From positions 1 through 27,736 of IMG/VR virus record IMGVR_UViG_3300033151_001174: DNA of 27,736 bases. One strand, given 5' to 3'. The translations under genes and the position numbers were made by a program. A model generated the notes under the pieces. The model was not told where the DNA came from, did not search any database, and saw only the letters and a program-made list of their open reading frames with translations. Shown here piece by piece: positions 7,924 through 27,141 of the stretch. Source of the DNA: a virus. The number at the start of each line of letters is the position of its first letter. Position 1 is the first letter of the stretch.

Positions 7924-7943
7924 GCGATTGAACACGCAATCGC
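7924..7943 (-). other. Intergenic hairpin
   Basis: GCGATTG (7924-7930) and CAATCGC (7937-7943) form a perfect 7-bp inverted repeat with a 6-base loop in the 65-base gap between the zinc-ribbon miniprotein and the metallophosphoesterase. On the minus strand it is followed by AAAGAC, not a T-tract, so a terminator is unlikely; RNA processing or an operator are possible. Confidence 0.35.
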
Positions 7944-7957
7944 TTATGTGATTAGCT

Positions 7958-8035: not shown

Positions 8036-8045
8036 AGCTTGTTCC

Positions 8046-8279
8046 TTAGATTAGTAATCGGGTAACTATCGGGACAATGACGGCGAGTGTCGCCACCGCC
8101 CCCCAAATCTGTCGTGGGTCTATGTAGCGGTGCCGCTCTCGACAGGCGGCACGCAATACATATTTCTCGTCAAGATGGTCGAAGCAAGAGTCTATGTGTC
8201 TCTTGATTCGTCGTTCCATCTCGAACAGTTCCCGCGTGTGTACGATGTCTCCGTTGCCTACGGGGGTATCCGCTGACAT
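8046..8279 (-). CDS. Small tail-anchored membrane protein (77 aa)
   Basis: Residues 15-55 form a charged helix (LFEMERRIKRHIDSCFDHLD), followed by DPRQIW and one membrane segment at about 58-77 (GAVATLAVIVPIVTRLLI) ending the protein. This helix-plus-C-terminal-anchor layout resembles XhlA-type or other lysis-accessory proteins. ATG 8279 follows AACGAAAGG. It lies between the virion peptidase and the lysis genes, consistent with a lysis or membrane role, but no family signature is certain. Confidence 0.65.
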   Translation of the reverse strand: MSADTPVGNGDIVHTRELFEMERRIKRHIDSCFDHLDEKYVLRAACRERHRYIDPRQIWGAVATLAVIVPIVTRLLI

Positions 8280-8293
8280 ATTTCGGCCTTTCG

Positions 8294-8872
8294 TTAGGCG
8301 TATTCGATATGCCAGGGTTCTTTACCGGGCATCGGGACTTTTAGGCTAAAGCGATGCGCGTTCTCTTGCACCCACTTCTGTTGTGCCGGTGTCATTTTCA
8401 GGTCGGCAGCAATACCTAGACCGTGTTTCGACCTACCTGGGGTAGCGGCTAGATTCGGCTTACGCTTCTTTAGGTCTACCTGCTGCTGGTAGCTTCGGAA
8501 ACCGTCCGTTATTGTGAACGTACCGATACCAGCGGCTTTCATGGCGGCGTTCATGCGCGACAAGGAGTTCCACATGTATGTTTGGAATCCGTATGGCGCA
8601 TCTCCACGGTGTTCTGGGAGTCCAGTCACACCGCCAGTAGGCATCATCTGGTCGATGCTGACTTGCTGTTTGGGTGCGTACTGGTCTGGTACTTCTCCCA
8701 TCTTCGGTATGGTGAGCCGCTTGAGGCTCATACCCTCTGTTACGGGGGTTTCATACTGTGGTTGGAAGAAGCGGTCAAGGTCGGGTAACTCGTAATCAGT
8801 TTCCCATCTCGGGATGTCCGGCAGGTCAGTCGAGAGGCGCGGTTTGATAGTCTGCGAGAAGTCGTCGAACAT
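8294..8872 (-). CDS. M15-family (VanY-like) peptidase with virion-type N-terminal extension
   Basis: From ATG 8872 (TGATG junction; GTG 8875 also in frame) the product has 192 residues. The C-terminal half carries the M15 zinc-peptidase signature SxHxxGxAxD as SKHGLGIAAD (H150, D157) and the PWHIEY block (H188, E190), together with TDGFRSYQQQ upstream. These enzymes cut D-Ala or L-Ala linkages in peptidoglycan stem peptides. The first 95 residues are an acidic, Pro-rich, non-enzymatic extension (DDFSQTIKPRLSTDLPDIP). It is translationally coupled to the 1009-residue virion protein, so a virion-carried wall-penetrating peptidase is likely. Specificity (endo- or carboxypeptidase) unresolved. 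Confidence 0.88.
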   Translation of the reverse strand: MFDDFSQTIKPRLSTDLPDIPRWETDYELPDLDRFFQPQYETPVTEGMSLKRLTIPKMGEVPDQYAPKQQVSIDQMMPTGGVTGLPEHRGDAPYGFQTYMWNSLSRMNAAMKAAGIGTFTITDGFRSYQQQVDLKKRKPNLAATPGRSKHGLGIAADLKMTPAQQKWVQENAHRFSLKVPMPGKEPWHIEYA

Positions 8873-11800
8873 CACCGCCCACCGCCCAACAGACTTTGGA
8901 GAGTAGCCGCCTGTGGTTTTTGTGCGCCCTCGTCGCGCATACGCCGGAGCAGGGCTTCTATCGCGGCCCTATCGTCGTATGCCTGGGATGCGGCGAAACG
9001 CTCTGTGTCATATAGCATCGGTTTCACACCCGTTGCGAACGCGAACCTGTCAGACGGTGTACGCGCCTGGTCGTCCAGGGCTTTGCTGATGTTGTTCATC
9101 CACGGTACGAGGTCCTTGAGCAGCTTCACGGCTTTTGCGTTCATGTAGTAGTAATCTTCGCCGTCTGCATCACGCTCTTGGATACCGAGTTTGTCTGTGA
9201 TTATCTCCCACACATCGCTCAGTCCGGGTACGCCAGAAGCCATGTCACCGAAGCGTTCTATGTACGCAGGTGCGCGGCGTTTCTCGCCCTTGTAACGAGC
9301 AATCGGAGAGTCGTACCAGAGGTCTTTGTTAAACAGGAACTCTAGTGGCTCTCTCAGGAGCGGGGAGATAGAACCAAAGGCATCCTTCGGCTCAAACTTC
9401 CCACGCATGAGTCCGCTCAACATTTCTAGGTCGCCCTGCGGGAACAGCCCAGCGGTGGATATGAATGTCGGGTCTTTGCCGCCAGTCGGGAGCGGTATCG
9501 GGAAGGTGTCCCTGAACCAGTCTGGCATCACGGACTCGTCGTAGTCGGTGACTGCTTCGCCAGATTCTTTCAGGTGGCCTAGCCAGGTGGAGCGACCTGG
9601 AGACTCAGCAAGCACACGAACCTGCTTGGTGAGGTTGCCCTTCGTCCACTTGTAGAACGGCATGAGGCGTTTTGCTACGCCGCGCTCAAAAACGCTGAAC
9701 GCTTCATCGGAGTAGTCGAGTAGTGCCTTGTTCACCATCTCAGCAGCAGCGGGAAGTGAAAGCCCCTTGTTCTGCGCCGTGACGAAGGCAGAGATACGCG
9801 ACTGGTTCTCGATTAGCTCATTGAGTTTTCCGAGCCATTGAGTAGCCTTGCTACCGCCACCCTTGCCGACCTGCTCGCTCAACTCGCGGAACGTGGTAAA
9901 CACGTTCGCCCTCACAGCATCGTCTAACAGCCGGAGGTCTGCGGGAGTGGGCTTGCCTAGCTTCATGCGGGTAAGCAACTCGAAGGAACGCTTTTCACCA
10001 GCGTAGGAGAAAAGCCCCTCTTGGAACATCATTATCTTGTTGGAGATTCCGTTGCGGTTGCCGAACGCGGGGAAGCGGAGAATCGTTGCTCCGCGCTTCC
10101 ACATGTTGTTGGCCTTGTCGAAAATGCGGAAGAAACCACCAACAGCTTCGTCGTCTGTGAAGGCATCGTTGAGCGACTTCGCAACACGACCAGCGGTGGC
10201 TTCGTCTATGCCGGTGGCTACTAGCTCGTCAGCGAATCTCTTGCCGTTGATTGCAGCGTAGTCCTTGTAGAGTCCTGCGCGTGTCAACTCTGCGAAGTCA
10301 AACTCGGTAGTGAGTCCTGCGCCCTTCTGTACGAAACCGTCCTCTGTTATAGAGATAGCGGCTCCGCGTTTCGGGCCTACACGCTTCCCTTCGTCTGCAA
10401 GTCCAGCCAAGTCCTCCATAGAGATACCCCTGGCGCGGTCTGATGCGGTCGCATACTGCTTGCCGGTAAGTCCTGCTCCTGCGCCAGCACGACCTGATGG
10501 TGCGCCACGGAGGTCGCCGGGGTCTACGCCAAGGAACTCTCGTAAGAAGTCGTCAAGAGTCTGTGTCTGCTTGCGGGTTCGGGATACTGGGTGCATACCG
10601 GGCGTGTATCCTGCGACTCCTGCACCTTCGCCCAGAAGCGCGTTCACCTTCAAGCCAGCAGCACGCATCTCGCTAAGAGACTCCGTGAAGCCCTGCTCCA
10701 TGATGTCTGCGGCTTGCTCTGCTCTTTTCACCAGGTCGTCGGTGACAGTTACCCCATGTGTGGAGAAGTACGCTCCTGCTTCTTTCGATGTGAATACCTC
10801 TCGGATTGTTCCTGGGATATGCATGGCTTCACGGTGCGCCAGCATGTTATCGACTAGACCAGAGATGTCGTCGCCCTTGTTAGCGACGGTCTTTATCTCG
10901 TCTATCATGTTGGTGAACTTGCCCAAGTCCTCGGGCGTACCCATGCCCTTGTTGTAGGCATAGGTGAGCATGAAGCGAGTCTCGGGGTCTGGGAGTAGGT
11001 CTTGTACCCTCTTGGCGGCATCGTCAGCTACGTTCCTAAAGAACGCATTGGAGCCTTTGTGTATCTTCGCTGCGAGTCTCGCGCTGGATGCTACTGCTTC
11101 GTTCCCCTCACGGAATATGCGGGTGAAAGAGTCCAAAGCACCGTGACCGAACGCACGTTCGAGTCCTTCGGTGATGGGTAGCTTGCGGAGTCCGGCTTTG
11201 GTGCCGAAGCCTAGCTTGGAGAGTGCTGCTTCGCCGCCTAGCTGGATTCCTGCGAACTTCACGCCGCCACGACCGTACAGCTTGAAAGCGTCGGTCAGGA
11301 GCCTCTGGGACTCCTTAATGTTGGTCGGGTCGGCTATGGACTTGAGGATACCTTCTGCGGTGAAGTGTCCTGCCTCGCGTAGCTTGTCTACGAGCGGCAG
11401 CACTTCATCGGCAGACTTGCCGAGAATACGAGCAACATCATCTACGTTGTCGCCGTACTGTGCTAACGCTCCTACGAGCGCACGACCGCCAGACTTGCCA
11501 GCTGAGCCGTAGCCCATAGTGACGTATGTAACGGGGTCTAGGAGTACGTCCACGGCGAAACCGCCGAGCATCTTAGCCCACTTGTTACTTACGCCGAGTT
11601 CGTCAAGGATGTCGGCACCTTCTACGCGCCGTTCGCCCTTCCACGCCTTGCCGAGTTCATCCCAGATGTCTACATCTTCGTCTGAGACAACGTTGTGTAC
11701 TAGGCCACGGACAGCGGTTCCCGGCATATCCATTACGCCAAAGATGCGCTCAAGCGCACCGCCCCCCTGCTTCTTTGTTGGGTCTTGCTGACCCATAGAA

Positions 11801-11901
11801 GCAAGGAGGGCACGATTCGCCTGGTTCGTCTTTAGGACGCTAGATACGGGGTCTGCTGTCTTGGTACCCGCCCTGAGTATGTCTGAGAGAGAAACGGGCA
11901 T
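8872..11901 (-). CDS. Large internal/ejection virion protein (1009 aa, inferred)
   Basis: A 1009-residue largely helical protein with Gly/Ala-rich stretches (AGAGAGLTG near the middle) and a segment NNMWKRGATILRFPAFGNRN resembling regions of very large phage and plasmid polyvalent proteins. No catalytic motif is evident. It lies after the nozzle-like gene and before a peptidase, the place where podoviruses encode internal virion proteins that are ejected with the DNA. ATG 11901 follows CTAGGAGTCCTAA. Tape measure is an alternative but unsupported: no tube, sheath or baseplate genes are nearby and hydrophobic blocks are scarce. Coding call firm, role inferred. Confidence 0.72.
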   Translation of the reverse strand: MPVSLSDILRAGTKTADPVSSVLKTNQANRALLASMGQQDPTKKQGGGALERIFGVMDMPGTAVRGLVHNVVSDEDVDIWDELGKAWKGERRVEGADILDELGVSNKWAKMLGGFAVDVLLDPVTYVTMGYGSAGKSGGRALVGALAQYGDNVDDVARILGKSADEVLPLVDKLREAGHFTAEGILKSIADPTNIKESQRLLTDAFKLYGRGGVKFAGIQLGGEAALSKLGFGTKAGLRKLPITEGLERAFGHGALDSFTRIFREGNEAVASSARLAAKIHKGSNAFFRNVADDAAKRVQDLLPDPETRFMLTYAYNKGMGTPEDLGKFTNMIDEIKTVANKGDDISGLVDNMLAHREAMHIPGTIREVFTSKEAGAYFSTHGVTVTDDLVKRAEQAADIMEQGFTESLSEMRAAGLKVNALLGEGAGVAGYTPGMHPVSRTRKQTQTLDDFLREFLGVDPGDLRGAPSGRAGAGAGLTGKQYATASDRARGISMEDLAGLADEGKRVGPKRGAAISITEDGFVQKGAGLTTEFDFAELTRAGLYKDYAAINGKRFADELVATGIDEATAGRVAKSLNDAFTDDEAVGGFFRIFDKANNMWKRGATILRFPAFGNRNGISNKIMMFQEGLFSYAGEKRSFELLTRMKLGKPTPADLRLLDDAVRANVFTTFRELSEQVGKGGGSKATQWLGKLNELIENQSRISAFVTAQNKGLSLPAAAEMVNKALLDYSDEAFSVFERGVAKRLMPFYKWTKGNLTKQVRVLAESPGRSTWLGHLKESGEAVTDYDESVMPDWFRDTFPIPLPTGGKDPTFISTAGLFPQGDLEMLSGLMRGKFEPKDAFGSISPLLREPLEFLFNKDLWYDSPIARYKGEKRRAPAYIERFGDMASGVPGLSDVWEIITDKLGIQERDADGEDYYYMNAKAVKLLKDLVPWMNNISKALDDQARTPSDRFAFATGVKPMLYDTERFAASQAYDDRAAIEALLRRMRDEGAQKPQAATLQSLLGGGR

Positions 11902-11910
11902 TTAGGACTC

Positions 11911-13686
11911 CTAGTAGATTGACTTGCCAGTAGTGCGCTCAATGGCTCTGCGCTGAGCGTCGGTTACTGGTGCTTTGTAGCCGAAGTCATATCCTATCTG
12001 GCCTAGCAGCTTGCTGAGTGGGCCTCCCACCAATGCTCCGATAGGAGATGCCGGGTTAGTCATAGTCCACTCGTTTGCATTTTTGATGCCGCTCCACAGA
12101 CCAGAGGCCGCACGACCACCGCGAGTGGCTGGTGGTTCGTTCACGGCGGGTACTGCTGGTGCCGCTTCAACAACCGGCGGTGAGATTAGGTCGAGGATGT
12201 ACTTGGCGCGCTCGTTGCCACTTGCGGCTTCTGCGTTTAGGTCAACGCCATATATGGCCTGTAGGCCGCGCATGAATACGTCTGGGGCTGGTCGTTCTTC
12301 TTCTGGAAGACTAAACCAATCGACGGCGCGAGAAGCGACCTCAGACCAGTCGGTTGCACCGCCAGCCTCCTGTGATGCCGCCCATTGGTTTTGAGCCATC
12401 TTGAGATAGGCACGCCGTAATGCTAGGTCGGCTTCCGTGTTCTGCTGCGCGAGTGGCGTACCCAGGTTCTCGTAGTGCATGGGTACAGATTCCCACGGAT
12501 TCTGTGAGGTCGGGGGGTCGCCTACTGGCCCACGCATGGAACTCTTGGGTTCCAGGTAGTCCATGGTCGGTGCGCCACCAGGCTTGTACGTTGAGAAGCC
12601 AGGTTGACCGACTGTGGCGGTTCCTGGTGTCCAGCGCGAAACGGGAGATGTGGACGGTGGTGATAGCCACCCTGGTTTGTACGTCGGTAAACTGGGTTGC
12701 CCAACCGTCTTGGTTCCCGGTGTCCACGGAGAGGTTGGGGGTGCTACGGGAGAGATGGACGGTGCGCCAGAAGAAAACGCGGTCGTCGGTGCAGCGGTCG
12801 TCGGTGCAGCGGGGGTCGGTGCAGCAGAGGTACCCCACACGCCGCTCATTATCTGCTCGAAAATACCAGGCTGGTCGGGGAACGTCTGTTCCTCACCACT
12901 AAGCTGCCACTTGGCTAGACCAGCGGCGTTCAGGAGTTCCCACAAACGCATGGCGTTCTCTGACATCATACCACGCTCGGAGAGTGCTAGGGCATGCTGT
13001 GCGCGTGCGTCTGCTTCACGGCGGGAAAGAATCTCGTCAAATAGCAGGTTGGAGCGCGATGCCAGGTCTGCGCCTACGTCTTGGTGCATCTGTGCGCCAG
13101 CGGTGGAACTCGAAAGTCCCTTGTCGGCTAGATACTGCCGAACGCCGCGTGCTGCTCTCTCCCATGCCGGACGCATGGCTTCTTCTGCCATAGAGCGTAC
13201 AGAGCCGTAGTCTATCGGCTGATAGGCCGGTGCCCCTGGTACGTCTGGTGCGGGAGCGGGTGCAGGAGCGGGTGCAGGGGCGGGTGCAGGGGCGGGGGGG
13301 GGTGTCGGGGGGTATCCACTCCTGGGGGGTACTGGCGAGGGCGTAATCGGGGCTGCGTTGCGCTCCGTGATTCTTGTTAGCTGGTCTGAGAGGTCTTTGG
13401 CCCAAGTATCTTCTGCGCCAGCAGCATCGTTGCGCCTCTTGATGGCCGTTAGCTGTTCGCTGCGTTCTTTGACCTTCTTGGACTCCTTGGCCCTCTTAGT
13501 AGCAGCATCGTTGCGCCGTTTGATGGCCGCTAGCTGTTCGCTGCGTTCTTTGGCAGCAGCAGCACGCCTCTTGGCGTCTGCGGCCCTCTTTGCAGCAACC
13601 TTCCGCTTAGCAGCCGCGCTAGTGGTTTTCTTCGAGGTCTTTTTTCTGGTGGTCTTTCGCTTGCTACCACGGGCTATTACTGCCAT
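11911..13686 (-). CDS. Basic, Pro/Ala-rich virion protein (591 aa, inferred)
   Basis: Residues 1-90 are Lys/Arg/Ala-rich, like histone H1 tails (RGSKRKTTRKKTSKKTTSAA), and include a 27-residue repeat KERSEQL(A/T)AIKRRNDAA. About 115-150 is a Pro/Ala run. Then comes a helical domain with YGSVRSMAEEAMRPAWERAA, a second Pro/Thr-rich region with two copies of a WTPGT(K/A)TVGQP...TYKPG unit, and a C-terminal globular part (GALVGGPLSKLLGQIGYDFG). ATG 13686 follows GAGGGTGAG. The basic tail could contact packaged DNA, so an internal or ejected protein is likely, but no family is recognised. Confidence 0.7.
   Translation of the reverse strand: MAVIARGSKRKTTRKKTSKKTTSAAAKRKVAAKRAADAKRRAAAAKERSEQLAAIKRRNDAATKRAKESKKVKERSEQLTAIKRRNDAAGAEDTWAKDLSDQLTRITERNAAPITPSPVPPRSGYPPTPPPAPAPAPAPAPAPAPAPDVPGAPAYQPIDYGSVRSMAEEAMRPAWERAARGVRQYLADKGLSSSTAGAQMHQDVGADLASRSNLLFDEILSRREADARAQHALALSERGMMSENAMRLWELLNAAGLAKWQLSGEEQTFPDQPGIFEQIMSGVWGTSAAPTPAAPTTAAPTTAFSSGAPSISPVAPPTSPWTPGTKTVGQPSLPTYKPGWLSPPSTSPVSRWTPGTATVGQPGFSTYKPGGAPTMDYLEPKSSMRGPVGDPPTSQNPWESVPMHYENLGTPLAQQNTEADLALRRAYLKMAQNQWAASQEAGGATDWSEVASRAVDWFSLPEEERPAPDVFMRGLQAIYGVDLNAEAASGNERAKYILDLISPPVVEAAPAVPAVNEPPATRGGRAASGLWSGIKNANEWTMTNPASPIGALVGGPLSKLLGQIGYDFGYKAPVTDAQRRAIERTTGKSIY
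12781..12825. repeat. 15-base tandem repeat (three copies)
   Basis: GGTCGTCGGTGCAGC occurs at 12781-12795 and 12796-12810, with a degenerate third copy at 12811-12825. It encodes a short Ala/Thr/Pro repeat in the 591-residue protein and is a likely site of copy-number change. Confidence 0.8.
13249..13303. repeat. GC-rich tandem repeat encoding Pro-Ala, with a G9 run
   Basis: Units related to GCGGGTGCAGGG repeat from about 13249 and end in nine consecutive Gs at 13294-13302. They encode an (Ala-Pro)n linker. The homopolymer is also a likely sequencing or slippage hotspot, although the frame is intact here. Confidence 0.8.
13421..13551. repeat. Coding repeat, two about 50-base copies 81 bases apart
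   Basis: Bases 13421-13470 and 13502-13551 are nearly identical, with two visible substitutions. They encode the repeated KERSEQL-x-AIKRRNDAA block. The 81-base spacing keeps the frame and indicates a 27-codon internal duplication in the basic region. Confidence 0.85.
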
Positions 13687-15853: not shown

Positions 15854-16474
15854 TCACCAAGCCGTAGATATGGGGCAGAAGTCGTCAGACATGTTTGCGC
15901 TCGTCTGTTGGTTCCGAGCGTCATGCAGGAAGCGTTCGTAGTTAGTCCACTCGCGGTTGGATGCTTCGGCATCCCCAACCTGCTCGAACGCCTGAGCGAG
16001 TACACGCGCTTCGACTGCTGGCATCAGGTGGTTCGGGACTTCGATTGTCGAACCCGTAGCGGTGAGCGCGGTAGGCCACGCCTTGTACCAATGCACCATG
16101 GAAGCTGCGACCCCAGGAACGGGGCGTAGGTACAAGGAGGCATTGACGATAGCGTACCCTTCGGGCGTACCAGTAGCGGTTAGCGTCAGACCGCTCCACT
16201 CATACGGCCTCTCACGGTACATCTTGTTCGTACTGTGATAGAGGACTATGGTTTCGCGGTGCAAGGTAGCAGAGGCCGTGAGGGCGTATGTGCGAGTACC
16301 AGCAACGGTGTTGAAGCGGTACTCACTCAAGAACTCTGGCGGGTCTGTCTCTGCAACCACGGTACGCATCGACTGGTTGTAGCTGTCACGCAGGGCATCG
16401 TCGTCCCACACTCCCGCTGTTTCTTCCTCTAGCTTCACTCGCAAGAGTGTCAAGCGGTCGTTGAAGGTCGTCAC
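15854..16474 (-). CDS. Head-tail adaptor-like protein (206 aa)
   Basis: GTG 16474, preceded by GGGGAGG, gives 206 residues. Helical ends (LTLLRVKLEEE, DDDALRDSYNQSMRTVV; C-terminal VEARVLAQAFEQVGD) flank a beta middle (YRFNTVAGTRTYALTASATL; YAIVNASLYLRPVPG). That helix-beta-helix layout, its size and its position before the nozzle-like gene match podoviral and siphoviral adaptor proteins that bind beneath the portal. The family is not certain. Confidence 0.65.
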   Translation of the reverse strand: MTTFNDRLTLLRVKLEEETAGVWDDDALRDSYNQSMRTVVAETDPPEFLSEYRFNTVAGTRTYALTASATLHRETIVLYHSTNKMYRERPYEWSGLTLTATGTPEGYAIVNASLYLRPVPGVAASMVHWYKAWPTALTATGSTIEVPNHLMPAVEARVLAQAFEQVGDAEASNREWTNYERFLHDARNQQTSANMSDDFCPISTAW

Positions 16475-16477: not shown

Positions 16478-16840
16478 TTAGCCTCCCCACGCCCAGTAGG
16501 TAAGCGTGCCGGTCACTCCCGTATCCACAGAAGCGGTCACGGAGTATCCACAAGTAGGCATAGCTACCCATTGAAGTATCTCGCCGGAGAGAAAACCTGT
16601 GCGTGGATATGTGTTGTCGTCTAGGTCTTTGGGTGGGTCTACCGTCGAGGGCTGACCCGCCACATCCAGCTTCAACGTGAATACGGTGGTGGCAGAAAGA
16701 CTCGCCACGCTGATTCCCAGGTGCGGGAACCCAGGTGCCACGTTTATCGCGGTGTGCGTCCCATTCACGGCTACGGCGAGGGATTCAGTCACCCTCACGG
16801 GGCCACTTGCATCGTACCTTACGTGTAGTTCGTTAGCCAT
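16478..16840 (-). CDS. Small beta-rich virion protein, possible decoration protein (120 aa)
   Basis: A 120-residue protein, nearly all beta and Thr/Ser/Val-rich (ESLAVAVNGTHTAINVAPGF, SATTVFTLKLDV, YSVTASVDTGVTGTLTYWAW). ATG 16840 follows AAGGAGTAGAAG. It is the first virion-type gene after the six-gene glycan cassette and lies before the adaptor. A capsid decoration or minor structural role is plausible by size and composition; no family recognised. Its many Ser/Thr residues would make it a conceivable target of the cassette enzymes, which is speculation. Confidence 0.55.
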   Translation of the reverse strand: MANELHVRYDASGPVRVTESLAVAVNGTHTAINVAPGFPHLGISVASLSATTVFTLKLDVAGQPSTVDPPKDLDDNTYPRTGFLSGEILQWVAMPTCGYSVTASVDTGVTGTLTYWAWGG

Positions 16841-16843: not shown

Positions 16844-17467
16844 CTACTCCTTCTGTGCAACGCCGAATGTCATAGCGGGTAACTTCTTGTCGAGTTCCGC
16901 TATAAAGCCTTCGACATCTGCTTTGATGGCGAGGGCATACTTGGATTCATGCCGCCACTCGTCTAAGTAGCAAGTCAGAATCGCACCCCCAGGCATAATC
17001 ACAGGCCGGTTGAAACCCGCCCTGGTCATAAGGAATCTAAGCCCGTTGGTTTGTATCCCCCACAGGTCGCGGCCTTCGTCTGGCTGCGTGTTCCCTACGG
17101 AGATAAGGATGCTACCGCCGGGCTTCAACACGCGGTACATCTCGTTCACTATCGCCGCCGGATTGACGGCGTATTGTAGTACGTCGGTGCAGAGTACGGT
17201 GTCGAACTCGTTGTCAGCTATCGGCATTTCCTCTGCGTCAGCCAAGATGAAGTCGTCTGCGTGAACGGAGTCCACGGCGCGGAAATCAAGTCCGACCCAT
17301 CCCGTAACGTCACAGTCGGGTCGCCAGTCGTCCAGGTCGGAAGCCCAGAACATACGGCGAAACGGCATTGTGCCGCAACCTACGTCCAGCACACGCCCCT
17401 TGAACTTGTCTGCGTTCTCCTGCACTAGCCTCGAGCGCATGTATGCGTTGTACAGCATCTCTCTCAT
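16844..17467 (-). CDS. Class I SAM-dependent methyltransferase
   Basis: A 207-residue methyltransferase with motif I VLDVGCGTMPF (26-36), an acidic second strand (WVGLDFRAVD), the DAEEMPIADNEFDTVLCTDV block and post-motif LKPGGSILISVG, as in Methyltransf_11. Targets in this family include small molecules and sugars; here the context suggests a sugar or glycan. ATG 17467 follows TTGGGGGAGGCACT and overlaps the upstream GT-like stop (ATGA). Last gene of the cassette. Confidence 0.87.
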   Translation of the reverse strand: MREMLYNAYMRSRLVQENADKFKGRVLDVGCGTMPFRRMFWASDLDDWRPDCDVTGWVGLDFRAVDSVHADDFILADAEEMPIADNEFDTVLCTDVLQYAVNPAAIVNEMYRVLKPGGSILISVGNTQPDEGRDLWGIQTNGLRFLMTRAGFNRPVIMPGGAILTCYLDEWRHESKYALAIKADVEGFIAELDKKLPAMTFGVAQKE

Positions 17468-18246
17468 AGTGCCTCCCCCAAGTCGCGCAGGTAACGCTCC
17501 TTGCTGTTGAACTCATGGTAGAAAGCGGCGGCTTCGTAGTCTGGCTCAGTCTCTTTGAGCGCGGCGCGTAGCTTGCGTATCGTCGTTTCCAGGTCGCTCC
17601 GCTTCACTAGCTGGACATACGGCAGGTCGGTGGTTCCGACCACCCTTCTTCCAGCCTCCATGAACTCTCTTGCCGTGTTCGCGGAACCGTCATGTGGCGT
17701 TAGACGCAGGTTCACGCTGCATTGAGATACCACGCTCGGCATCTGTTCTGCCTGGTATGTGTGTACTCCGTATGTGTGCCACCCCACATCTGGGAAAACG
17801 TCTTGCAGATAACTCACGATGCGCGTTCCGTAGAACAGCGGATTACCGCCGAGATACACACCCACGACAGGCTTCTCTGGAAGCGGTGTGACGGGGAATC
17901 TCTGTGTGGTCGGGAACGTCACGACCTCGGCTTCGACACCCTTCTCCGCGAGTTCTTCCTTCAACGCTTCGGACTCGCAAAGGTGTACCGCGTTGTTCGG
18001 GAGCATGTGAGGCTCCGCTAGGCGCAGTACGTCAGTACCGCACCAATGTATGATGCGGCGGTCTGCACGCTTGGTAGCATCGACCGTTCGTGCATAAGTC
18101 GGTGCGTCATACATACCGATTATGTATACGTCCTTGCAGTCTGGGACTGGTGCATCGACCATCGGCGGTGCGTCTATCGCGTTCGCTACCACCTGCCCGA
18201 AGAACCCCATAGATGGGATTGCCCATACAACGGTGTCGAGTTTCAT
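17464..18246 (-). CDS. GT-B-like glycosyltransferase (260 aa)
   Basis: Start ATG 18246 (ATG 18249 too close to the ribosome site GAGGGGGA) gives 260 residues. The N-terminal half shows RRIIHWCGTDVLRLAEP at 63-79 and the second half VVGVYLGGNPLFYG (127-140), HTYGVH, and NLRLTPHDGSANTAREFMEA (179-198), matching the acceptor/nucleotide-binding layout of GT-B enzymes including the conserved Glu (about 194). At 260 residues it is shorter than typical GT4 enzymes (about 350), so it may be a compact or degenerate form. A TGATG junction couples it to the GT2 gene. The sugar is unknown. Confidence 0.68.
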   Translation of the reverse strand: MKLDTVVWAIPSMGFFGQVVANAIDAPPMVDAPVPDCKDVYIIGMYDAPTYARTVDATKRADRRIIHWCGTDVLRLAEPHMLPNNAVHLCESEALKEELAEKGVEAEVVTFPTTQRFPVTPLPEKPVVGVYLGGNPLFYGTRIVSYLQDVFPDVGWHTYGVHTYQAEQMPSVVSQCSVNLRLTPHDGSANTAREFMEAGRRVVGTTDLPYVQLVKRSDLETTIRKLRAALKETEPDYEAAAFYHEFNSKERYLRDLGEAL

Positions 18247-18935
18247 CATTCCCCCTCGAAATAGTCGTACAGTTCTGTGCGGAATCGCCGTCGTTCTATG
18301 CCGTCGTCCGTCATTTGCCCTTTGTGCTTCCTGTATGCCAGGAGTTGCATCGGCACGTAGGTCAGGTGCGGGTCGGCTTCTAGGTACTTTAGGCAGGTCA
18401 GGCAATCGTCACCGAAATAGGTGGAGCCGAAGTGATACCAGGATAGGTCGTTCTCCCTAAGCCACTTCACGCGCAGTAGACCCTTTAGGTTTATCGGGGT
18501 CGTCAGACGTTCCTTCGCGTAAGCGATAGCGGCCTCCTTATCCTTTGGGAACCCGCTATAATCCCATACCGTGACTACGCGGTGGTTCTCGTCCACTACG
18601 AGCAGGTTGCACCATGCCCAATCGGTGTCGGGCGACATGAAACTCTTGTAGGTCTTTAGACACGCCGGAAGAAGGTAGTCGTCAGCGTCTAGGTGCATCA
18701 CGTAGTCGCCCGTGGCGCGTTCTAAGACCTCTCTACGCCCCGTGACGAGCGTTCCCGTGTTCTCTTTGTGCAGTATCGGTATCACGCTTGGGTAGGACGC
18801 GATGATGTCTTGTGAGCCATCTGTGGAGCCGTCGTCTACTACTATCACTTCGTCGGCTTGGCTCAACGCGCTCTCGATGCTTTTTCTGAGGAAACGTTTG
18901 TAGTTGTAGTTCGTGATGCCTACTGTGACCTTCAT
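18246..18935 (-). CDS. Glycosyltransferase family 2 (GT-A)
   Basis: A 229-residue GT2 enzyme: MKVTVGITNYNYKRFLRKSI at the start, VVDDGSTDGS (32-41) binding the nucleotide-sugar, and HLDADDYLLP (81-90) with the DxD metal motif. GT2 enzymes transfer a sugar from UDP- or dTDP-sugars with inversion. ATG 18935, preceded by GAGGGGGAAGTG, overlaps the methyltransferase stop by one base (TGATG). No membrane segment, so a cytosolic enzyme is expected. Donor and acceptor unknown. Confidence 0.9.
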   Translation of the reverse strand: MKVTVGITNYNYKRFLRKSIESALSQADEVIVVDDGSTDGSQDIIASYPSVIPILHKENTGTLVTGRREVLERATGDYVMHLDADDYLLPACLKTYKSFMSPDTDWAWCNLLVVDENHRVVTVWDYSGFPKDKEAAIAYAKERLTTPINLKGLLRVKWLRENDLSWYHFGSTYFGDDCLTCLKYLEADPHLTYVPMQLLAYRKHKGQMTDDGIERRRFRTELYDYFEGE

Positions 18936-19582
18936 CACTTCCCCCTCTTGAAAATAGCTGTGAAACTGCCTTCTGAGTCTAGGAACACGGGTTCTTCGTC
19001 CTGGTGTATGAGTTCTGCATACTCGCTAGAGATGTCAGCACCCTCGGTTTCGCCTACCGAGTGCATCAGAACGCCGTTCTCCATCCAGAGGTTGTGGTGG
19101 TGCAGACCTCGGTATTTGCCGCGTCTACCCTCGTTGGTACTCGATTCGATATAGATGATGTCACCGATGTCTACCGCCATGCACATAGCCTTGAACACCT
19201 GCGGTGGCGATATTGTATGGTCTAGCGAGTTTCTTGCATACGCCACATCGAACGGATTGTCACGATACAGGTTCACTATCTCGCCAGTACCGAACACGGG
19301 CTTTATCGGATAGTCGATACCGTGTGCCAGGAGCAGTTCTGCGTAGCGGTTCGCCAGAGGGTCTATAGCGGTCACTTTTAGTAAACTGGTGTCTACCCCC
19401 CACCGAAGGGTGGAAAGTGGCCCAGAACCGACCTCAAGAACGTCTGTGGGGTTGTATTCGAGCATTTTCTTGGGGAAGTGCGCTTCGCCGCCCGAAAGCA
19501 GGTCTGCTAGGTTCTCTTGGTGTGACCTTCCCGCAAGAACGCCATCCCAGAATCTTACCTCGGAAGCGTAGTCGTCCCTCAT
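18935..19582 (-). CDS. SAM-dependent methyltransferase (215 aa)
   Basis: From ATG 19582 (ribosome site AAGGGGGAGAGC; ATGA overlap with the radical-SAM stop) the 215-residue protein has motif I DVLEVGSGPLSTL (47-59), VTAIDPLANRYAE with the ribose-binding acid, and FDVAYARNSLDHT. This is a class I Rossmann methyltransferase, of the type often found with O-antigen or glycan clusters. An in-frame extension to 19834 overlaps the radical-SAM gene and is rejected. Substrate unknown. Confidence 0.83.
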   Translation of the reverse strand: MRDDYASEVRFWDGVLAGRSHQENLADLLSGGEAHFPKKMLEYNPTDVLEVGSGPLSTLRWGVDTSLLKVTAIDPLANRYAELLLAHGIDYPIKPVFGTGEIVNLYRDNPFDVAYARNSLDHTISPPQVFKAMCMAVDIGDIIYIESSTNEGRRGKYRGLHHHNLWMENGVLMHSVGETEGADISSEYAELIHQDEEPVFLDSEGSFTAIFKRGK

Positions 19583-20244
19583 GCTCTCCCCCTTGTATAC
19601 GAGTCGAAGTCGATGCGGTTGTGACAGGTCTTGCATACGTCGAATACGTCTTGTCCATCGGAGCAGAGTGACAGCATCATCGGGAGATACGGTTGCAGGA
19701 TGTGTTCCAGCGACGAGTCGAAGATGTTGCCGAGCGTGTTCTTCCAGTCCTGGCAGCACAGGTGTACGCCGCCATCGTGGTCTATCGGGACTTCCACACG
19801 ATGCCGCCAGCAAGTAGCAGAATCGCTCGTCCACGCCTTGTAGTTCTTGAGCCTTGAGTCGGGCGAGGACGGGTAGACGCTCATGCGCTTGTGCATGATG
19901 TCAGGTACGAACCCGTAGTCCGTGACCACTATCCACTCGAACAGGTTTGCGAAGTCTTGGTCGAGCAGCGTACCGTTAGTCCAAAGCATGAAACGGTCGT
20001 AGTCGCACGCCTCGATAGCAGCGCGAATCTCGTCCTTGTAGAGACACGGTTCGTTGTAGAAGTGGAAGCCCACATACCCGTCGAAGCCGAGTGCCACCGC
20101 TTCGTCGGTGACTCGGGCTATCGTGCCTGGGTCGAGTGTTGCGCGAGAGATTATACGGTCGTGCGCCGGACACCATTCGTGTTTGTGTGCCAGGTTGCAC
20201 TTGCCGCCTATCTCAAACGATAGATGCCTTACCCCCTTAAGCAT
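19579..20244 (-). CDS. Divergent radical-SAM/SPASM-like protein
   Basis: ATG 20244 (GAGAAGG upstream; ATG 20262 lacks a ribosome site) gives 221 residues. The radical-SAM fold is suggested by RHLSFEIGGKCNLA, FYNEP at 62-66 where GGEP-like motifs occur, and WTNGTLL (88-94). The cluster motif is abnormal: instead of CxxxCxxC it reads C16-NLA-H20-KHEW-C25, so one Cys position is His and the last Cys is displaced. The C-terminal part is SPASM-like (C145, C163-C164, LGNI, C194, C204-x2-C207). It may have an altered cluster or a non-classical role. Neighbouring enzymes suggest a sugar or cell-surface substrate. Confidence 0.72.
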   Translation of the reverse strand: MLKGVRHLSFEIGGKCNLAHKHEWCPAHDRIISRATLDPGTIARVTDEAVALGFDGYVGFHFYNEPCLYKDEIRAAIEACDYDRFMLWTNGTLLDQDFANLFEWIVVTDYGFVPDIMHKRMSVYPSSPDSRLKNYKAWTSDSATCWRHRVEVPIDHDGGVHLCCQDWKNTLGNIFDSSLEHILQPYLPMMLSLCSDGQDVFDVCKTCHNRIDFDSYTRGRA

Positions 20245-21247
20245 TTTCAAGCACCTTCTCATATAGGTCAGTTATCACATGGATGTTGCGTTCCATCGTG
20301 ACACTCTCGCGCCGTAGCTTGACGGCCTTGCGGAGCGGCTTTGGGTCTACCTCCTGCACCACTCTTGGTACATCTTCCAGTTTGTTGACGTAGACTCCGC
20401 AACCAGCGTCACAGAGCGGCTTGACTAGCGGGTTGTTGAACGCGATAAAGGGGATACCCGCCGCCATGTACTCGAACACCTTATTGGGCAGAGATATGTC
20501 CCATTGGAGGATGCGCTTGGTCGCGCCCGTGAATCCCCAGTCGTGTCGCGCCATAGCGTGTATCAGGTGCGAGTATTCAAGGACTGTTTCGTGTACCAGG
20601 CCGTAGTCTATCCCTGGATTGCCTGGATACAGGTGTAGCGGTACGTCCTTAGCGGCACACAGGTCCGCTAGTGCCGACAGGTCGCGCCACGCACCATCTT
20701 CGTTGCGCTTCTGCAAACCACCAGCGTATACAAGACCGCCGATGTGCGGGAGCGGGGTTTTGTCGATTATCACATCTGCGTTCACGAAGCAGGGCAGGAC
20801 AGCGTAGTGCTTGCCCTCCATGTACTTGCCAAAGCCCATCTCGATACAGAACTGCCGCTGTTCCTCGCTCACGAACACGTAAGCGTCTGCGACACGGAAC
20901 GCCTCTTCTTCGTAGGGGTCGAACGGTGAGTCCGGCCTGATGCTGGTAACGTCATGCACGTTGAAGATAACGGGCTTGTCGGTAGCTTCCTTCGCCGCGA
21001 TAACGGGCCAGTTCGGTTCGTTGTGAACGTGGATTATCTCGGCTGGGTGTTCCGCTATGCGCTTCTTGAAGTCGTCGTATCCCATGAACGTGTTGCTGTA
21101 GATACGACGATACTCATACTCAAGCTGGAACGGTGGCCTAGAGCCGAGTGCGTCATGTATCCAGCCAGCTTTGTTCATAGCGGCTGTTATCTTGCCTACA
21201 CGGACACACGGGTAGTTGCCAGACACCATCAGTCCGAGTCGCTTCAT
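20237..21247 (-). CDS. Glycosyltransferase, GT4-like (GT-B)
   Basis: ATG 21247 after ACAAGGGGGAAACC yields 336 residues (an extension to 21304 runs into the hairpin and is rejected). It shows IIHVHNEPNWPV (71-82), VIFNVHDV, AYVFVSEEQR (122-131) and the C-terminal GT4 signature SLPNKVFEYMAAGIPFIAF (252-270). The enzyme would transfer a sugar from an NDP-sugar to a glycan or lipid carrier. First gene of the six-gene cassette; its 3' end overlaps the radical-SAM gene by 8 bases. No transmembrane segment. Confidence 0.87.
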   Translation of the reverse strand: MKRLGLMVSGNYPCVRVGKITAAMNKAGWIHDALGSRPPFQLEYEYRRIYSNTFMGYDDFKKRIAEHPAEIIHVHNEPNWPVIAAKEATDKPVIFNVHDVTSIRPDSPFDPYEEEAFRVADAYVFVSEEQRQFCIEMGFGKYMEGKHYAVLPCFVNADVIIDKTPLPHIGGLVYAGGLQKRNEDGAWRDLSALADLCAAKDVPLHLYPGNPGIDYGLVHETVLEYSHLIHAMARHDWGFTGATKRILQWDISLPNKVFEYMAAGIPFIAFNNPLVKPLCDAGCGVYVNKLEDVPRVVQEVDPKPLRKAVKLRRESVTMERNIHVITDLYEKVLENA

Positions 21248-21316: not shown

Positions 21317-21844
21317 TTAGAGCGCGCCAGCGTACAGCGAAATCTTCACTCCGAACGCGTCGATAAGTTCGCAAGAACCAGCGCGAGTGCTGGAAACGAG
21401 CTTGACTGCACGAAGGTCGATGTCCTCGTCGGTCTTTAGACGGAACTTACGTGGCCGCCAGAGGCCGAGAGCATCCTTGTTGAACATACCGCAGACAGCG
21501 ACGGAACTGGAGATGCTGATTTGCGGGTCACGATACACACGAACGTCACCGAGCAGGGTTGTCTCGTAGAACTTCTTTAGAACATCGTTACCCAGGTCGC
21601 CCTGAACTCCGTATGTGGAGTTACTTGTGGTGGCTACTGCGAAGTAGTACCAGGCGCGTGGGTGGATTACGAAGTTGAACGGACGAGGAACACGAATCTT
21701 CTGCTCGTCTAGGGTCGTGTAGCCCTTCATCACAGTACCGATAGTCAAGCCTGTGGTGGAGGTGGCGGTGAGGGTGTTCGAAAAGTTGGAGAAGTGAGCA
21801 AGCAGATTTTTGTCTACGCTCTGACCACACGCTACGCCATGCAT
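21317..21844 (-). CDS. Major coat protein, C-terminal part (frameshifted)
   Basis: This frame encodes the main body and C-terminus of the coat protein (VPRPFNFVIHPRAWYYF, LLGDVRVYRDPQI, ending VKISLYAGAL). It is open upstream of ATG 21844 into EDERSRNEIKDQHAY, which continues the N-terminal part after a one-base shift in the T-run at 21891-21894, so 21844 is probably not a real start. The restored protein is about 283-285 residues, a small HK97-type coat protein. Family inferred from gene order (scaffold before, adaptor after) and sequence style. Confidence 0.8.
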   Translation of the reverse strand: MHGVACGQSVDKNLLAHFSNFSNTLTATSTTGLTIGTVMKGYTTLDEQKIRVPRPFNFVIHPRAWYYFAVATTSNSTYGVQGDLGNDVLKKFYETTLLGDVRVYRDPQISISSSVAVCGMFNKDALGLWRPRKFRLKTDEDIDLRAVKLVSSTRAGSCELIDAFGVKISLYAGAL

Positions 21845-22173
21845 GTATGCGTGCTGGTCTTTAATCTCGTTTCTAGAACGCTCGTCCTCGAAAACGTTGT
21901 GAACTCAGAAGCCGAGAGGTTCACCGATGCGTTGACGTAAGTGGTGGTACTTGAGATTGCCGTACCCTCAGTCAACGTGCTGGACTCGGAGATGTTTACC
22001 GGGTTCCAGTAAGGATACTGTAGCGAGTTACCCTTGCTGCCTTCGCCAATTTTCTTGACGAGATGCTGCATAGGGAAGTCCTCGTACATCACCTTGTACG
22101 ACTTTTCGCGGATGTCCCCGATTAGGACTGCGAAAGAGCCGGAGATGGACTTGCCGAGGTTAGCCAATGTCAC
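21832..22173 (-). CDS. Major coat protein, N-terminal part (frameshifted)
   Basis: The first part reads ANLGKSISGSFAVLIGDIRE, then LQYPYWNPVNISESSTLTEG and VNASVNLSASEFTTF, then loses sense and stops at 21832. After TTF the other frame continues as FEDERSRNEIKD, so one missing T in the run at 21891-21894 (or a -1 slip there) restores one coat gene. Start: GTG 22173 is too close to AAGGA; TTG 22167 is spaced well and gives MANLGKSISG. Without correction no coat protein is made, so sequencing or assembly error is the first suspicion. Confidence 0.8.
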   Translation of the reverse strand: MTLANLGKSISGSFAVLIGDIREKSYKVMYEDFPMQHLVKKIGEGSKGNSLQYPYWNPVNISESSTLTEGTAISSTTTYVNASVNLSASEFTTFSRTSVLETRLKTSTHTCMA

Positions 22174-23066: not shown

Positions 23067-23390
23067 TCACCAAGAGAGGACGGATGCCTTCTCTCTGGTT
23101 TCGTCACTTAGCGGGTCTAGCCCGTCGTTCGCCGGGTTCCATATAAGGAATCCAGCCGGACATTTGAAGCACCAGTTGTGCGCCCTATCGCCTAAGTCAC
23201 AACGATTAGCGCACCAGACCCCACGGGTGCCAGGTAGGTGGTTAGCGTATTCGCTTGAATCTTTCTTGAACTCGCTGCAAAACGCAACGGGGATGCGGCT
23301 TTGCGCCTCTACACAACGGTTGTGATGGTCTTGGCGACCCTCCGCTGTATCGGGATACACACATGTCGGTGGGTGGTCGCTATACGGCAC
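23067..23390 (-). CDS. Cys-rich hypothetical protein (107 aa)
   Basis: The only start is GTG 23390, preceded by GAAGGGGGCGGTACC inside the portal gene end (11-base overlap). The 107-residue product has seven cysteines, with WCANRC and NWCFKCP giving C-x3-C-x8-C-x2-C toward the C-terminus and CVYPDTAEGRQDHHNRC near the N-terminus. Zinc binding is plausible. It lies between portal and scaffold, an unusual place for a zinc protein. Function unknown. Confidence 0.6.
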   Translation of the reverse strand: MPYSDHPPTCVYPDTAEGRQDHHNRCVEAQSRIPVAFCSEFKKDSSEYANHLPGTRGVWCANRCDLGDRAHNWCFKCPAGFLIWNPANDGLDPLSDETREKASVLSW

Positions 23391-25293
23391 CGGTACCGCC
23401 CCCTTCGAGTAGTGGTACTAACATGTCTATGAGTTCAGGCGGGAGTTGCTGTAGCACTTCCGGACCACCTTGAGCAATCATAGCCATCAGTTCTTCGAGC
23501 GGGTCTGCTTGTGGCATCTGCGTAGCCATACCCGCTACTGGTGCGCCTCCCCCCGCCATCTCTGCAGGAACGGGAGCGGGGGCGGGCTGCTCGGGGGCTT
23601 GCGCTTGTGCTTGCTGGGCTTGGGCTTGCTGGGCTTGGGCTTGCTGGGCAGCAGCACCTTCGGGGTTACCCGGCGCACGCGACCACACTTCCTTGAAGTT
23701 GGGCCAGCGGAGCCTACGGAGTAGTTCTTCACCGTCTATCACCCCCATACCGAATAGCTGGAACGCTTGTTGTGCTGTCTCCTGTTGCGTTGTAGGAAGC
23801 ATGGAGTCTGGGGAGATTTTGATGTCCCGCTCCAATACGTCCTTCGTTATCAGTTCGCCAGGGGTGAACTCGGCGGTGTTAGCTTGGGTGTTGTCGTAGT
23901 TTCCTGCGACTTCGACTATCCAAGTCTCCTTGCTGTACTGCTTCATGTTGTGAAGGAGTTGCCTACCGAGTTTTCGCATAGACCATTCGAGCAGACGTGC
24001 CGCGCTCCTGACCCTTGTGAGGTCGGACTGCGCTATCGTCGCTACTTCCTCAGCGGTCTTGTTCCCTGGGGTGTATGCACCATAGGAGATGTCGTGCAAT
24101 CCCAAGATGTCGTTTATGGCCTTCTCGATGGTCGCAAGGAACTCGAACACATGCCGCGACGGTTGCGGCGTGCGGAGAATGTTGACCGCTCGGTTCACAT
24201 CCCTACACTCCAGCGCATACGCGGGAGCGTTCGTCATTTGCTCCTTCTTGACACCGAGGGATGGGTTGACGAGTGCGAGGAATCCACCAGCCTGTACGGT
24301 CTGGTCGTAGAGAAGCTGCATCATGCGGTTGTACATGGTCTGTAAACCTATGATGTTCTCTATGTCACCAGCGGGGTAGAAACGCCCAGTAGTGGGATAC
24401 GCAAATATCGGGATGAACGGGAACTCGCCGTGGTCATACGGGTTCGCCCTATCCTCTAGGACTTGTCCACCGGCAAGAACCATCACGCGCCCGTTCTTGT
24501 ACTTCTTCTTGGACTTAGTGATTGTGAACTTGTCTGCGTCCTCACTCCACACGACTTCTGAATCGTCTTTCGTCCAGAACTCATACACGTTGCAGGAGAG
24601 CGCGGGATTCAGGCGTTCGTTCTCGTCACGGAAGCGGGTGTCTATCTCGTTGCCGTGTTCCGGGTCGTAGCCAGCTTCCCACCCTGGGTCGAAGTTGTCC
24701 CAATCAACATCCTTGTTGTCCTTGTACTTCTTCTTTACCGCGCCGACCTGTGCCTTGTACTCGTATACGAGCCAGGTGGGGTCGAAGTCCTCACAGGTGC
24801 AGTCTGGGTCTACTATCACATGGGACGGGTTTATGACACCCATATCCATGCGTTTTAGGTGCCACCAGCCGACTCCGTAGATGCGGGAGTCCTGAACACC
24901 GAAGAACACCTTTGTATCGGCACTCGCCAAATCCCACCAACGATTGACACCGGCTTTGATTATCTCGGAGCGGGGTCTGTCGCTTTCCTCCACCGGGCCG
25001 ATGTCGATAGCGGGACGGTTGTCCGTGAGGAACGTGGAATACGACTTGACTGCGCGGAAGCAGAAGTTGACATACGGCTTCGACTTCCAAGAAGCAAGGT
25101 TGGGGATAAGACCCCATTGTTCGCCGTCGTGGAAGTCCTTGTAGACCCGCCACGGGTTCTCGATAGAACCAGTAGTCTTGAACGGATGGGAATGTTCAAG
25201 GTCTGCTGCGCGCTTCTCTTTGCCGTCCGTATAACACCTGTTGAATAGGTGTAATGTGGCGGCTGTGTCACGCTTCTTTTCTTTCTTCGGCAT
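23380..25293 (-). CDS. Portal protein (P22-like)
   Basis: A 637-residue protein with portal-style blocks: an N-terminal NPWRVYKDFHDGEQWGLIPN, PYVNFCFRAVKSYSTFLTDN, INPSHVIVDPDC (the strand-rich wing), FPFIPIFAYPTTGRFYPAGD and IENIIGLQTMYNRMMQLLYD, typical of P22-like portals. It ends in a Gln/Ala/Pro-rich low-complexity tail that may form the crown or barrel. The dodecameric ring is the DNA gate and the motor dock at one capsid vertex. ATG 25293 follows GGAGTGAGAT right after terminase. Confidence 0.9.
   Translation of the reverse strand: MPKKEKKRDTAATLHLFNRCYTDGKEKRAADLEHSHPFKTTGSIENPWRVYKDFHDGEQWGLIPNLASWKSKPYVNFCFRAVKSYSTFLTDNRPAIDIGPVEESDRPRSEIIKAGVNRWWDLASADTKVFFGVQDSRIYGVGWWHLKRMDMGVINPSHVIVDPDCTCEDFDPTWLVYEYKAQVGAVKKKYKDNKDVDWDNFDPGWEAGYDPEHGNEIDTRFRDENERLNPALSCNVYEFWTKDDSEVVWSEDADKFTITKSKKKYKNGRVMVLAGGQVLEDRANPYDHGEFPFIPIFAYPTTGRFYPAGDIENIIGLQTMYNRMMQLLYDQTVQAGGFLALVNPSLGVKKEQMTNAPAYALECRDVNRAVNILRTPQPSRHVFEFLATIEKAINDILGLHDISYGAYTPGNKTAEEVATIAQSDLTRVRSAARLLEWSMRKLGRQLLHNMKQYSKETWIVEVAGNYDNTQANTAEFTPGELITKDVLERDIKISPDSMLPTTQQETAQQAFQLFGMGVIDGEELLRRLRWPNFKEVWSRAPGNPEGAAAQQAQAQQAQAQQAQAQAPEQPAPAPVPAEMAGGGAPVAGMATQMPQADPLEELMAMIAQGGPEVLQQLPPELIDMLVPLLEGGGTGAV
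23611..23650. repeat. 15-base tandem repeat in the portal tail
   Basis: TTGCTGGGCTTGGGC occurs at 23611-23625 and 23626-23640, then a partial copy to 23650. It encodes Ala-Gln repeats in the portal C-terminal tail and keeps the frame. Confidence 0.8.
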
Positions 25294-25296: not shown

Positions 25297-27141
25297 TCAC
25301 TCCATTGGCAGACCCGTGAGAGGGTCGATGATGTGCGCCCGTACCTCACGTTCGCGGTGGATGTACTCTTGTGCGCCTATGACCAGGAGGCCGGAGGCAA
25401 TCACAAGGTCGTCGTGTAGCCCCTTCGGGTGTGTGAGCCGCCCACTCTCTTGTTCCTCAAAGTGCGCGAACTCCGTCACGGTCTTACTATCGGGGGTTAT
25501 GAACCACCCCTTGTTCACCCAGGCTTTCAGGGTGTCGCATAGGATGGTCTTTGTCGCCTTGTTCTCTTGATAGCCGATAAGGTCAGAAGGGTCGTCCACT
25601 AGCTTCTTGGTGTTGCGGTCGTACCACAGGTTGAAGTATGTCTCCTTCACCGTCTTTATGATGGTGCCACCGTGGTTGTTGCGCTCGATTATCAGTATGG
25701 CCTCGTTGTACCAGTTAGCCATTCGCTCGGCTATGAGTGAGGTTATGTCGGTGCCGGAACGTGCCTGATAGATGCAGACCGCTTCGCAACCGAGGTTCGA
25801 CGGCTCGAAGCGTTCTAGCGCGTCTAGACCGTATTCGAGAGCGCGTTTCTCATGCTCACCAGCACGAAGCACACGCCCCGCCATCACTACGGCGAAGTCA
25901 CCGTCTGGACTACCGCCAGTAGGGTCTACGCTCACAACGTAATGCTCCCCCGCTCTCGGGGGTTCGTACATACGCAGCTTTCCTCTTGCGGAGGAACGCA
26001 CTACGCAGAAGCCTCTATACTCCTTCTCGTCAGGAGTCAGATTACCGACTACGGGGCGGTTGACACGGTTCATCTTGTGAATACTCGGCTTCAATACGCC
26101 GTTGATGATGTCCAGGTCGAAGAAGCTGTTGCCGGATAGGAAAAACGCTTCTTCCTCTGTACAAGGATACTGCACACGGAACGCCCAGATATCGGCTTCG
26201 GGGTTCTTGCGGAGGAATAGTTGTAACTGTCTCTCGCGCCACGGAGCGTTCAGCCGCCCTTGAGCGGCGGCAAACATAATCTCGTCGCGGGAGAAGTCCT
26301 CTACAGGGACTTCTGTGCCGTCCTCTTGTGTGATAGTCGCGTCTTTGAGTCTGCGCGGGTCGTCGCCCCACCAGAAGAAGTACGCCTTGAAACCTGGGAG
26401 GTCGCCAGCACGCGCCTTGCTATAGGTGAAGTAGAGTTCATCTTCTCCGTTGCCGTTGCCGATTATGAACATTTGCCCACCACCCTCTACGGATGGGAGA
26501 GCGTTGTTCAACACGCCTTCTTGTTCGCGGTGCCGCCCGAACTCGTCCAGGCCGACCGCACCGGAGACACCAGCGACGGAGTTTGGTGTGGATGTCAAGA
26601 CTTGCAGTTCCGAGAAACCGAACGATACGGTCTTTTTCGCGGACATCTTATCGCGCTTGCGGTCTAAGCTCTGCTTGGAGCGCGTCATAGCGCGTTCACG
26701 CATCCACTCTGGAACGCGGTCTAGCGTCACTCGGAGGCGTTTCATAGCCTCCTTAGCCTTCTCCTCGCTATCGGCGCACTCGTAGGACTGTGCGGCCTCT
26801 GAGAAGATGGTTCTCCACAGGAAATAGTGGATTTGGAGGGTCGTGATGCCTAACTGACGGGCTTTCACGGCCACCATACTGTAACCAGCGTGCCATTCAC
26901 GCAGAAGGTGACGCTGGATGGGCCACATGACCCACCGGGAGATGGTGCCGTTACCCTTGTCCCAGAGCCAACCGTAGTTGTCGATGAAATACTCGGGACT
27001 CTCGGAGCATCTACGCCACTCCCACTCGCGGAAGGCTTGTATCTGGGCGTAATCGCCCTCACCTTTCCGCAAACGCTCGAATATCAACGTGAACTCTAGT
27101 CGCTTGCGGTCACGGAAGCTGAGGGACGCTTCGGCAGTCAC
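25297..27141 (-). CDS. terL: Terminase large subunit
   Basis: GTG 27141 (GTGA overlap with the previous gene; AGGAAGAA upstream) gives 614 residues. The ATPase has a Walker A-like KARQLGITT (93-101) and Walker B VGLDEF with D199-E200. The nuclease has VVSVDPTGG (D406), AILIIERNN (E486) and LHDDLVIA (D577/D578), the acidic metal ligands of the RNase H-like terminase fold. It packages DNA into the prohead through the portal and cuts concatemers. No separate small terminase is recognised in the window; it may lie to the right. Confidence 0.95.
   Translation of the reverse strand: MTAEASLSFRDRKRLEFTLIFERLRKGEGDYAQIQAFREWEWRRCSESPEYFIDNYGWLWDKGNGTISRWVMWPIQRHLLREWHAGYSMVAVKARQLGITTLQIHYFLWRTIFSEAAQSYECADSEEKAKEAMKRLRVTLDRVPEWMRERAMTRSKQSLDRKRDKMSAKKTVSFGFSELQVLTSTPNSVAGVSGAVGLDEFGRHREQEGVLNNALPSVEGGGQMFIIGNGNGEDELYFTYSKARAGDLPGFKAYFFWWGDDPRRLKDATITQEDGTEVPVEDFSRDEIMFAAAQGRLNAPWRERQLQLFLRKNPEADIWAFRVQYPCTEEEAFFLSGNSFFDLDIINGVLKPSIHKMNRVNRPVVGNLTPDEKEYRGFCVVRSSARGKLRMYEPPRAGEHYVVSVDPTGGSPDGDFAVVMAGRVLRAGEHEKRALEYGLDALERFEPSNLGCEAVCIYQARSGTDITSLIAERMANWYNEAILIIERNNHGGTIIKTVKETYFNLWYDRNTKKLVDDPSDLIGYQENKATKTILCDTLKAWVNKGWFITPDSKTVTEFAHFEEQESGRLTHPKGLHDDLVIASGLLVIGAQEYIHREREVRAHIIDPLTGLPME

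Follow-up and report, generated by a model that had tools for sequence, protein, structure and literature searches.

The usual assumption is that phage particles consist of unmodified protein. In mycobacteriophages, capsid glycans serve as a shield against antibodies. The presence of capsid glycans in these phages is cited in PMC11256854 and PMC12619734. A similar gene arrangement has been described in the cluster O mycobacteriophages, where gp35-gp38 of Corndog comprise O-methyltransferase and glycosyltransferase genes within the virion block, between the portal and protease genes; their products have been proposed to modify the capsid (PMC4351075). Corndog has a long tail and a prolate head, and no radical-SAM gene has been reported in its set. 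Among solved radical-SAM proteins, the nearest to the one discussed below is BtrN, the radical-SAM/Twitch enzyme of butirosin biosynthesis (PDB entries 4M7S and 4M7T), which acts on an aminocyclitol hydroxyl as a dehydrogenase, not a mutase, and has the canonical CX3CX2C motif. A non-canonical motif, CX5CX2C, is found in HmdB (PMC4389238). Glycosyltransferase/methyltransferase cassettes inside virion blocks are already known; new at the locus described here is a predicted radical-SAM gene in such a cassette, with a C-X5-H-X2-C motif.

The window analyzed is the whole 27,736-base virus record IMGVR_UViG_3300033151_001174, which comes from an uncultured tailed phage and carries every recognized gene on the minus strand. 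The phage is podovirus-like, with kin that include Cellulosimicrobium phage DS1 and spring-water and pelagic phages (about 20 to 28% portal or hub identity), and a Gram-positive actinobacterial host is plausible. The virion block starts with the terminase large subunit (25297..27141; phrog_5989, 2.7e-17) and a P22-like portal (23380..25293; P22_portal, 3.2e-30), followed by a 107-aa gene, a scaffold-like gene (22950-22195), and the major head protein gene (21317..22173). The latter appears to be interrupted by a frameshift of one base at a four-base A/T run, at about 21891-21894 (region 21832-21900). This more probably reflects an indel from sequencing or assembly than a true interruption of the gene, since the two halves, when joined, match a major head protein family (phrog_544, 8.2e-7). 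On the other side of the cassette, 3 bases past its last gene, lies a gene for a 120-aa protein (16478..16840) that gave no match in family searches. Its position, the same as that of small decoration-like genes in three related loci (L009, L013, and L019), suggests that it is possibly a head decoration protein. It is followed by an SU10/P22 gp4-type head-tail adaptor (15854..16474; SU10_adaptor, 1.6e-12) and a P22 gp10-type hub (15847-13688), beyond which are found more tail, lysis, and exonuclease genes. The tail region encodes a 591-aa protein (11911-13686), a possible glycan acceptor, with the Pro/Ala/Thr-rich linkers PPTPPPAPAPAP and AAPTPAAPTTAAPTT; linkers of this type are O-glycosylated in actinobacteria. 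The window also encodes a 1009-aa protein (8872-11901), probably an ejected internal virion protein, that is related to a 1783-aa protein of DS1 (phmmer, 8e-9) and weakly to a protein of Arthrobacter phage Jasmine. Promoter and terminator scans left the coding strand blank.

The cassette itself consists of six genes, referred to here as g1 to g6, that run from 21247 to 16844 on the minus strand between the major head protein and the SU10/P22-type connector. The preliminary description of this DNA had its coordinates, strand, gene order, and flanking coat and adaptor genes right. g1 (20237..21247) encodes a GT4-type glycosyltransferase of 336 aa (Glyco_transf_4, 7.7e-9), with the ribosome site AAGGGGGAAACC and the C-terminal motif LPNKVFEYMAAGIP. 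g2 (19579..20244; 221 aa from the ATG at 20244) encodes a radical-SAM/Twitch-like protein with a SPASM match (1.3e-6). The 215-aa product of g3 (18935..19582) is class I methyltransferase-like, having a below-cut-off match to Methyltransf_23 (3.5e-4) and motif I in the form LEVGSG. g4 (18246..18938) encodes a GT2 glycosyltransferase (Glycos_transf_2, 9.9e-24) whose DAD motif lies at residue 84 and which matches glycosyltransferases in PDB (from 2e-10) and, weakly, GtrB-like PHROGs families. The 261-aa product of g5 (17464..18249) is a probable GT-B glycosyltransferase, with a weak Glyco_trans_4_4 match (4.8e-3) and a C-terminal E-x-M-E-A-G motif. Its single-sequence AlphaFold2 model was too poor to use (pLDDT 37), and PDB matches to PPR proteins were discarded, as no stretch passed alone. 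g6 (16844..17467) encodes a 207-aa class I methyltransferase (Methyltransf_11, 1.4e-15; motif I, LDVGCG) that matches methyltransferases in PDB (from 4e-9). Pfam backing is firm for g1, g2 (as SPASM), g4, and g6, where the earlier family calls stand; it is weak for g3 and faint for g5, leaving the GT-B call unproven on a single match. A tblastn search of the phage set with g1, g2, and g5 at 1e-3 found no match, and scans of a viral contig collection with single g2, g4, or terminase proteins found no close relatives.

All five junctions in the cassette overlap, by 1 to 8 bases: 8 at g1/g2 (counted from the g2 ATG at 20244), 4 at g2/g3 and at g5/g6, and 4 or 1 at g3/g4 and g4/g5, each of which has two possible starts. 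A GGGGG ribosome site is found at five of the six starts, with GAGAAGG at g2. Overlap lengths and ribosome sites are as first described, and together with the flanking genes they confirm the view of the cassette as one coupled unit in the virion block. The G5 site is enriched in the cassette and not exclusive to it (5/6 versus 2/15 other reading frames, at 7892 and 23390; Fisher p = 0.006). The GC content and codon use agree with those of the other phage genes and give no sign of recent import, which is therefore unlikely.

At about even odds (a probability of roughly 50%), we read the cassette as a late-expressed, soluble virion-glycosylation module that would add methyl caps and one sugar oxidized or epimerized via g2. 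In such a module, g1, g4, and g5 would draw on the host's nucleotide sugars to link a short glycan to its acceptor and lengthen it; no recognized nucleotide-sugar genes are seen in the window. The acceptor would be a particle protein of the same transcript; candidates are the product of the head gene, the small 120-aa protein encoded at 16478, and the PT-rich protein of the tail region (11911-13686). The two methyltransferases would cap sugar hydroxyls. g2 would act like BtrN, using AdoMet together with one auxiliary Fe-S cluster to oxidize a single hydroxyl of a sugar, and its product, a keto or epimerized sugar, would then be methylated or extended. The gene identities (weak for g3 and probable for g5), the overlaps, and the head-to-connector position are grounded in the sequence; from these we infer what g2 does and which glycan is placed on which acceptor.

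The cassette might instead serve late remodeling of a host envelope glycan, blocking competing phages or adsorption to debris. Phage glycosyltransferases often target O-antigen or wall polymers. The weak similarity of g4 to GtrB-like families points the same way, as does a pelagimyophage host-recognition island with glycosyltransferases and radical-SAM cassettes, which has been read as a surface modification locus (PMC7029224). However, no membrane segments are predicted in the six proteins (in 19-residue windows, no mean hydropathy exceeds 1.45), and the cassette encodes no flippase or polyprenyl-phosphate transferase; the membrane flippase and membrane glucosyltransferase that accompany GtrB in GtrAB-type systems are thus missing. 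What is found is a Corndog-type arrangement of soluble glycosyltransferase and methyltransferase genes in a virion operon. The absence of a membrane protein makes a soluble, virion-directed glycan a better fit, and the late position by the coat genes would leave little time for a change of the surface. We regard envelope remodeling as unlikely, although it is the alternative to which we give the most weight.

The glycosyltransferases of related phages also lie within the virion block, which further argues against an envelope target. A portal profile search yielded 80 loci, and 50 portal-lineage records were scanned for protein families. Most of these phages lack a cassette. GT2 is found in three records (in one of them above the cut-off), GT1 in one, methyltransferases in two, and SPASM in none of the 50. 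Glycosyltransferase matches are thus confined to 3 of the 50 records, in all three within the virion block and in two within the coat-to-connector interval. In one of these two (G014), the head protein is followed by two decoration-like genes, GT2-like and methyltransferase-like genes, and the next structural gene; in the other (G017), it is followed by three decoration-like genes, a GT2-like gene, and the next gene. Both GT2 matches are below the Pfam cut-offs, and the connector is named there by position, as the next gene has no adaptor match. The third, the uncultured phage ctf1B273 (MW202497.1), shares a P22-like portal and hub with the phage studied here and encodes GT2-TPR-GT4, a chaperonin, GT1, and a methyltransferase. 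In contrast to the cassette described here, these genes lie between the terminase and the portal and include no radical-SAM gene. The chaperonin, located inside the glycosyltransferase/methyltransferase block (3187-4755 of locus L006), is full-length (Cpn60, 1.6e-48).

In HTVC115P, just 63 bases with no gene separate head and adaptor, and the corresponding junction of HTVC104P is close to empty. Decoration-like genes fill this interval in L009, L013, and L019, as they do the head-to-connector interval of ctEqG8; those at 9360-10481 of L013 and 2332-3453 of L009 are rich in NLTRxTxxVTNRA repeats. The gap between head and connector genes therefore resembles a slot for accessory genes of the particle surface, and glycosyltransferases seem to have entered it more than once. 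No relative carrying the whole six-gene set was found. Of the two targets originally suggested, virion or surface glycan, the virion is supported by this synteny (two of whose matches are below cut-off), by the Corndog precedent, and by the absence of a membrane protein.

g2 is the most unusual member of the cassette. The canonical CX3CX2C motif is absent near its N terminus, where C-X5-H-X2-C is found instead (CNLAHKHEWC, 20170..20199, minus strand; C16/H22/C25). The GGEP-like acidic motif of strand 2 is present as FHFYNEP and aligns with FHFYGEP of BtrN. g2 also contains a BtrN-type set of auxiliary-cluster cysteines (C144, C162, C203, and C206, numbered from the codon at 20241), with Cys on either side of a β-hairpin and a C-X2-C after a helix, an arrangement for one cluster that aligns with BtrN. 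The AlphaFold2 model of g2 (pLDDT 44) is too poor for ligand placement; BtrN is the top Foldseek match of this poor model.

At the sensitivities applied, searches of phage, viral, plasmid, and genome collections found no close relatives of g2. A search with the HFYNEP motif revealed one true homologue, encoded in the 216-kb phage contig IMGVR_UViG_3300032236_001859 (L097); the other 5 of 6 pattern matches were rejected as four short frames sharing one common peptide and one 24-residue frame. This 499-aa protein consists of an N-terminal GT25 domain (3e-8) fused to a C-terminal g2-like domain, which aligns with g2 residues 4 to 209 at 29% identity (3e-24); in the aligned domain, the two proteins are 32% identical. 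The C, H, and C of the motif (CNLAGVHSRC in L097), HFYNEP, WTNG, and the auxiliary-cluster cysteines are invariant between the two. g2 alone matches BtrN at 9e-5, and the two-sequence profile matches it over the full length at 1.5e-9, as its sole match in PDB. Genes for two further proteins lie near the fusion gene (6119-7618 of L097): one protein, at 7623-10052, is large and weakly resembles sialyltransferases, and the other, at 11305-13044, is of the GT2/Capsule_synth type. As a Rosetta-stone fusion with GT25, the fusion gene counts for a joint action of g2 with glycosyltransferases; in contrast to the cassette, it is located on a much larger phage and offers a glycosyltransferase link, not a virion link. 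The rarity claimed for the radical-SAM combination is borne out by the single relative found and by the lack of SPASM in the portal lineage.

Among 399 Bacillota genomes, SPASM-type matches are found in 12 cases; the motif is readable in 11, all of which are canonical and none CX5HX2C. Two candidate relatives (H3/L004 and H68/L107) were rejected because they are radical-SAM genes of the canonical cellular type and lack the variant motif. A match in L001 to a pattern that included the first histidine was out of frame and due to chance, as were out of frame all five matches to E.G..CNL...H..CP in the genome contig collection; the pattern CC.DW.N.LGN gave no match. In the literature covered, which mostly excludes subscription papers, we found no description of a C-X5-H-X2-C motif or of a radical-SAM/Twitch member of a virion-glycosylation set.

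The spacing of the three ligand positions in g2 is identical to that in HmdB, which has cysteine in the middle position where g2 has histidine; the comparison concerns motif spacing alone. This shared spacing makes a cluster site of two cysteines and one histidine conceivable. Since the three canonical cysteines are not all present, g2 may fail to cleave AdoMet, and AdoMet radical chemistry is the weakest step of the proposal. The radical-SAM call thus retains the SPASM match and the acidic motif and lacks CX3CX2C. The "radical-rearranged" sugar once suggested is not borne out, given this motif and a nearest solved relative that is a dehydrogenase. In the best reading, g2 would be an atypical sugar-oxidizing, or possibly catalytically altered, radical-SAM/Twitch protein, which differs from BtrN in its motif and in being encoded by a phage among glycosyltransferases. 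It is possible, if doubtful, that g2 and its homologue represent a phage radical-SAM/Twitch branch that holds the AdoMet-cleaving cluster by C-X5-H-X2-C, partners glycosyltransferases as a neighbor or in a fusion, and oxidizes or epimerizes a sugar of the virion glycan. We know of no earlier example of a histidine-ligated AdoMet-radical cluster.

A virion-glycan cassette might also include g2 as a nonradical protein, with the auxiliary cluster only or none, that assists the glycosyltransferases by binding substrate or serving as a scaffold. Both homologues lack the canonical middle cysteine yet keep the Twitch cysteines, and the GT25 fusion would suit a partner domain. Nevertheless, invariance of the outer cysteines, histidine, HFYNEP, and WTNG at 32% identity argues for a retained active site, and we regard this version as unlikely. 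The relationship to BtrN also brings to mind antibiotic clusters, including that of BtrN, in which sets of radical-SAM, methyltransferase, and glycosyltransferase genes occur (PMC6231123). A modified nucleoside or small molecule, for DNA hypermodification or as a diffusible metabolite, is nevertheless a very unlikely product of the cassette: no nucleotide-modifying genes are seen in the window, three different kinds of glycosyltransferases suit glycan chains better, and the cassette lies in the virion block.

If the virion-glycosylation reading is true, methylated and radical-modified sugars would widen the known glycan chemistry of phage particles, and a histidine-ligated cluster would be new chemistry for viral particles. 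The C-X5-H-X2-C motif, common to two distant phage proteins and absent in the canonical cellular matches, would offer a handle on the replacement of cysteine by histidine at the AdoMet-cleaving cluster.
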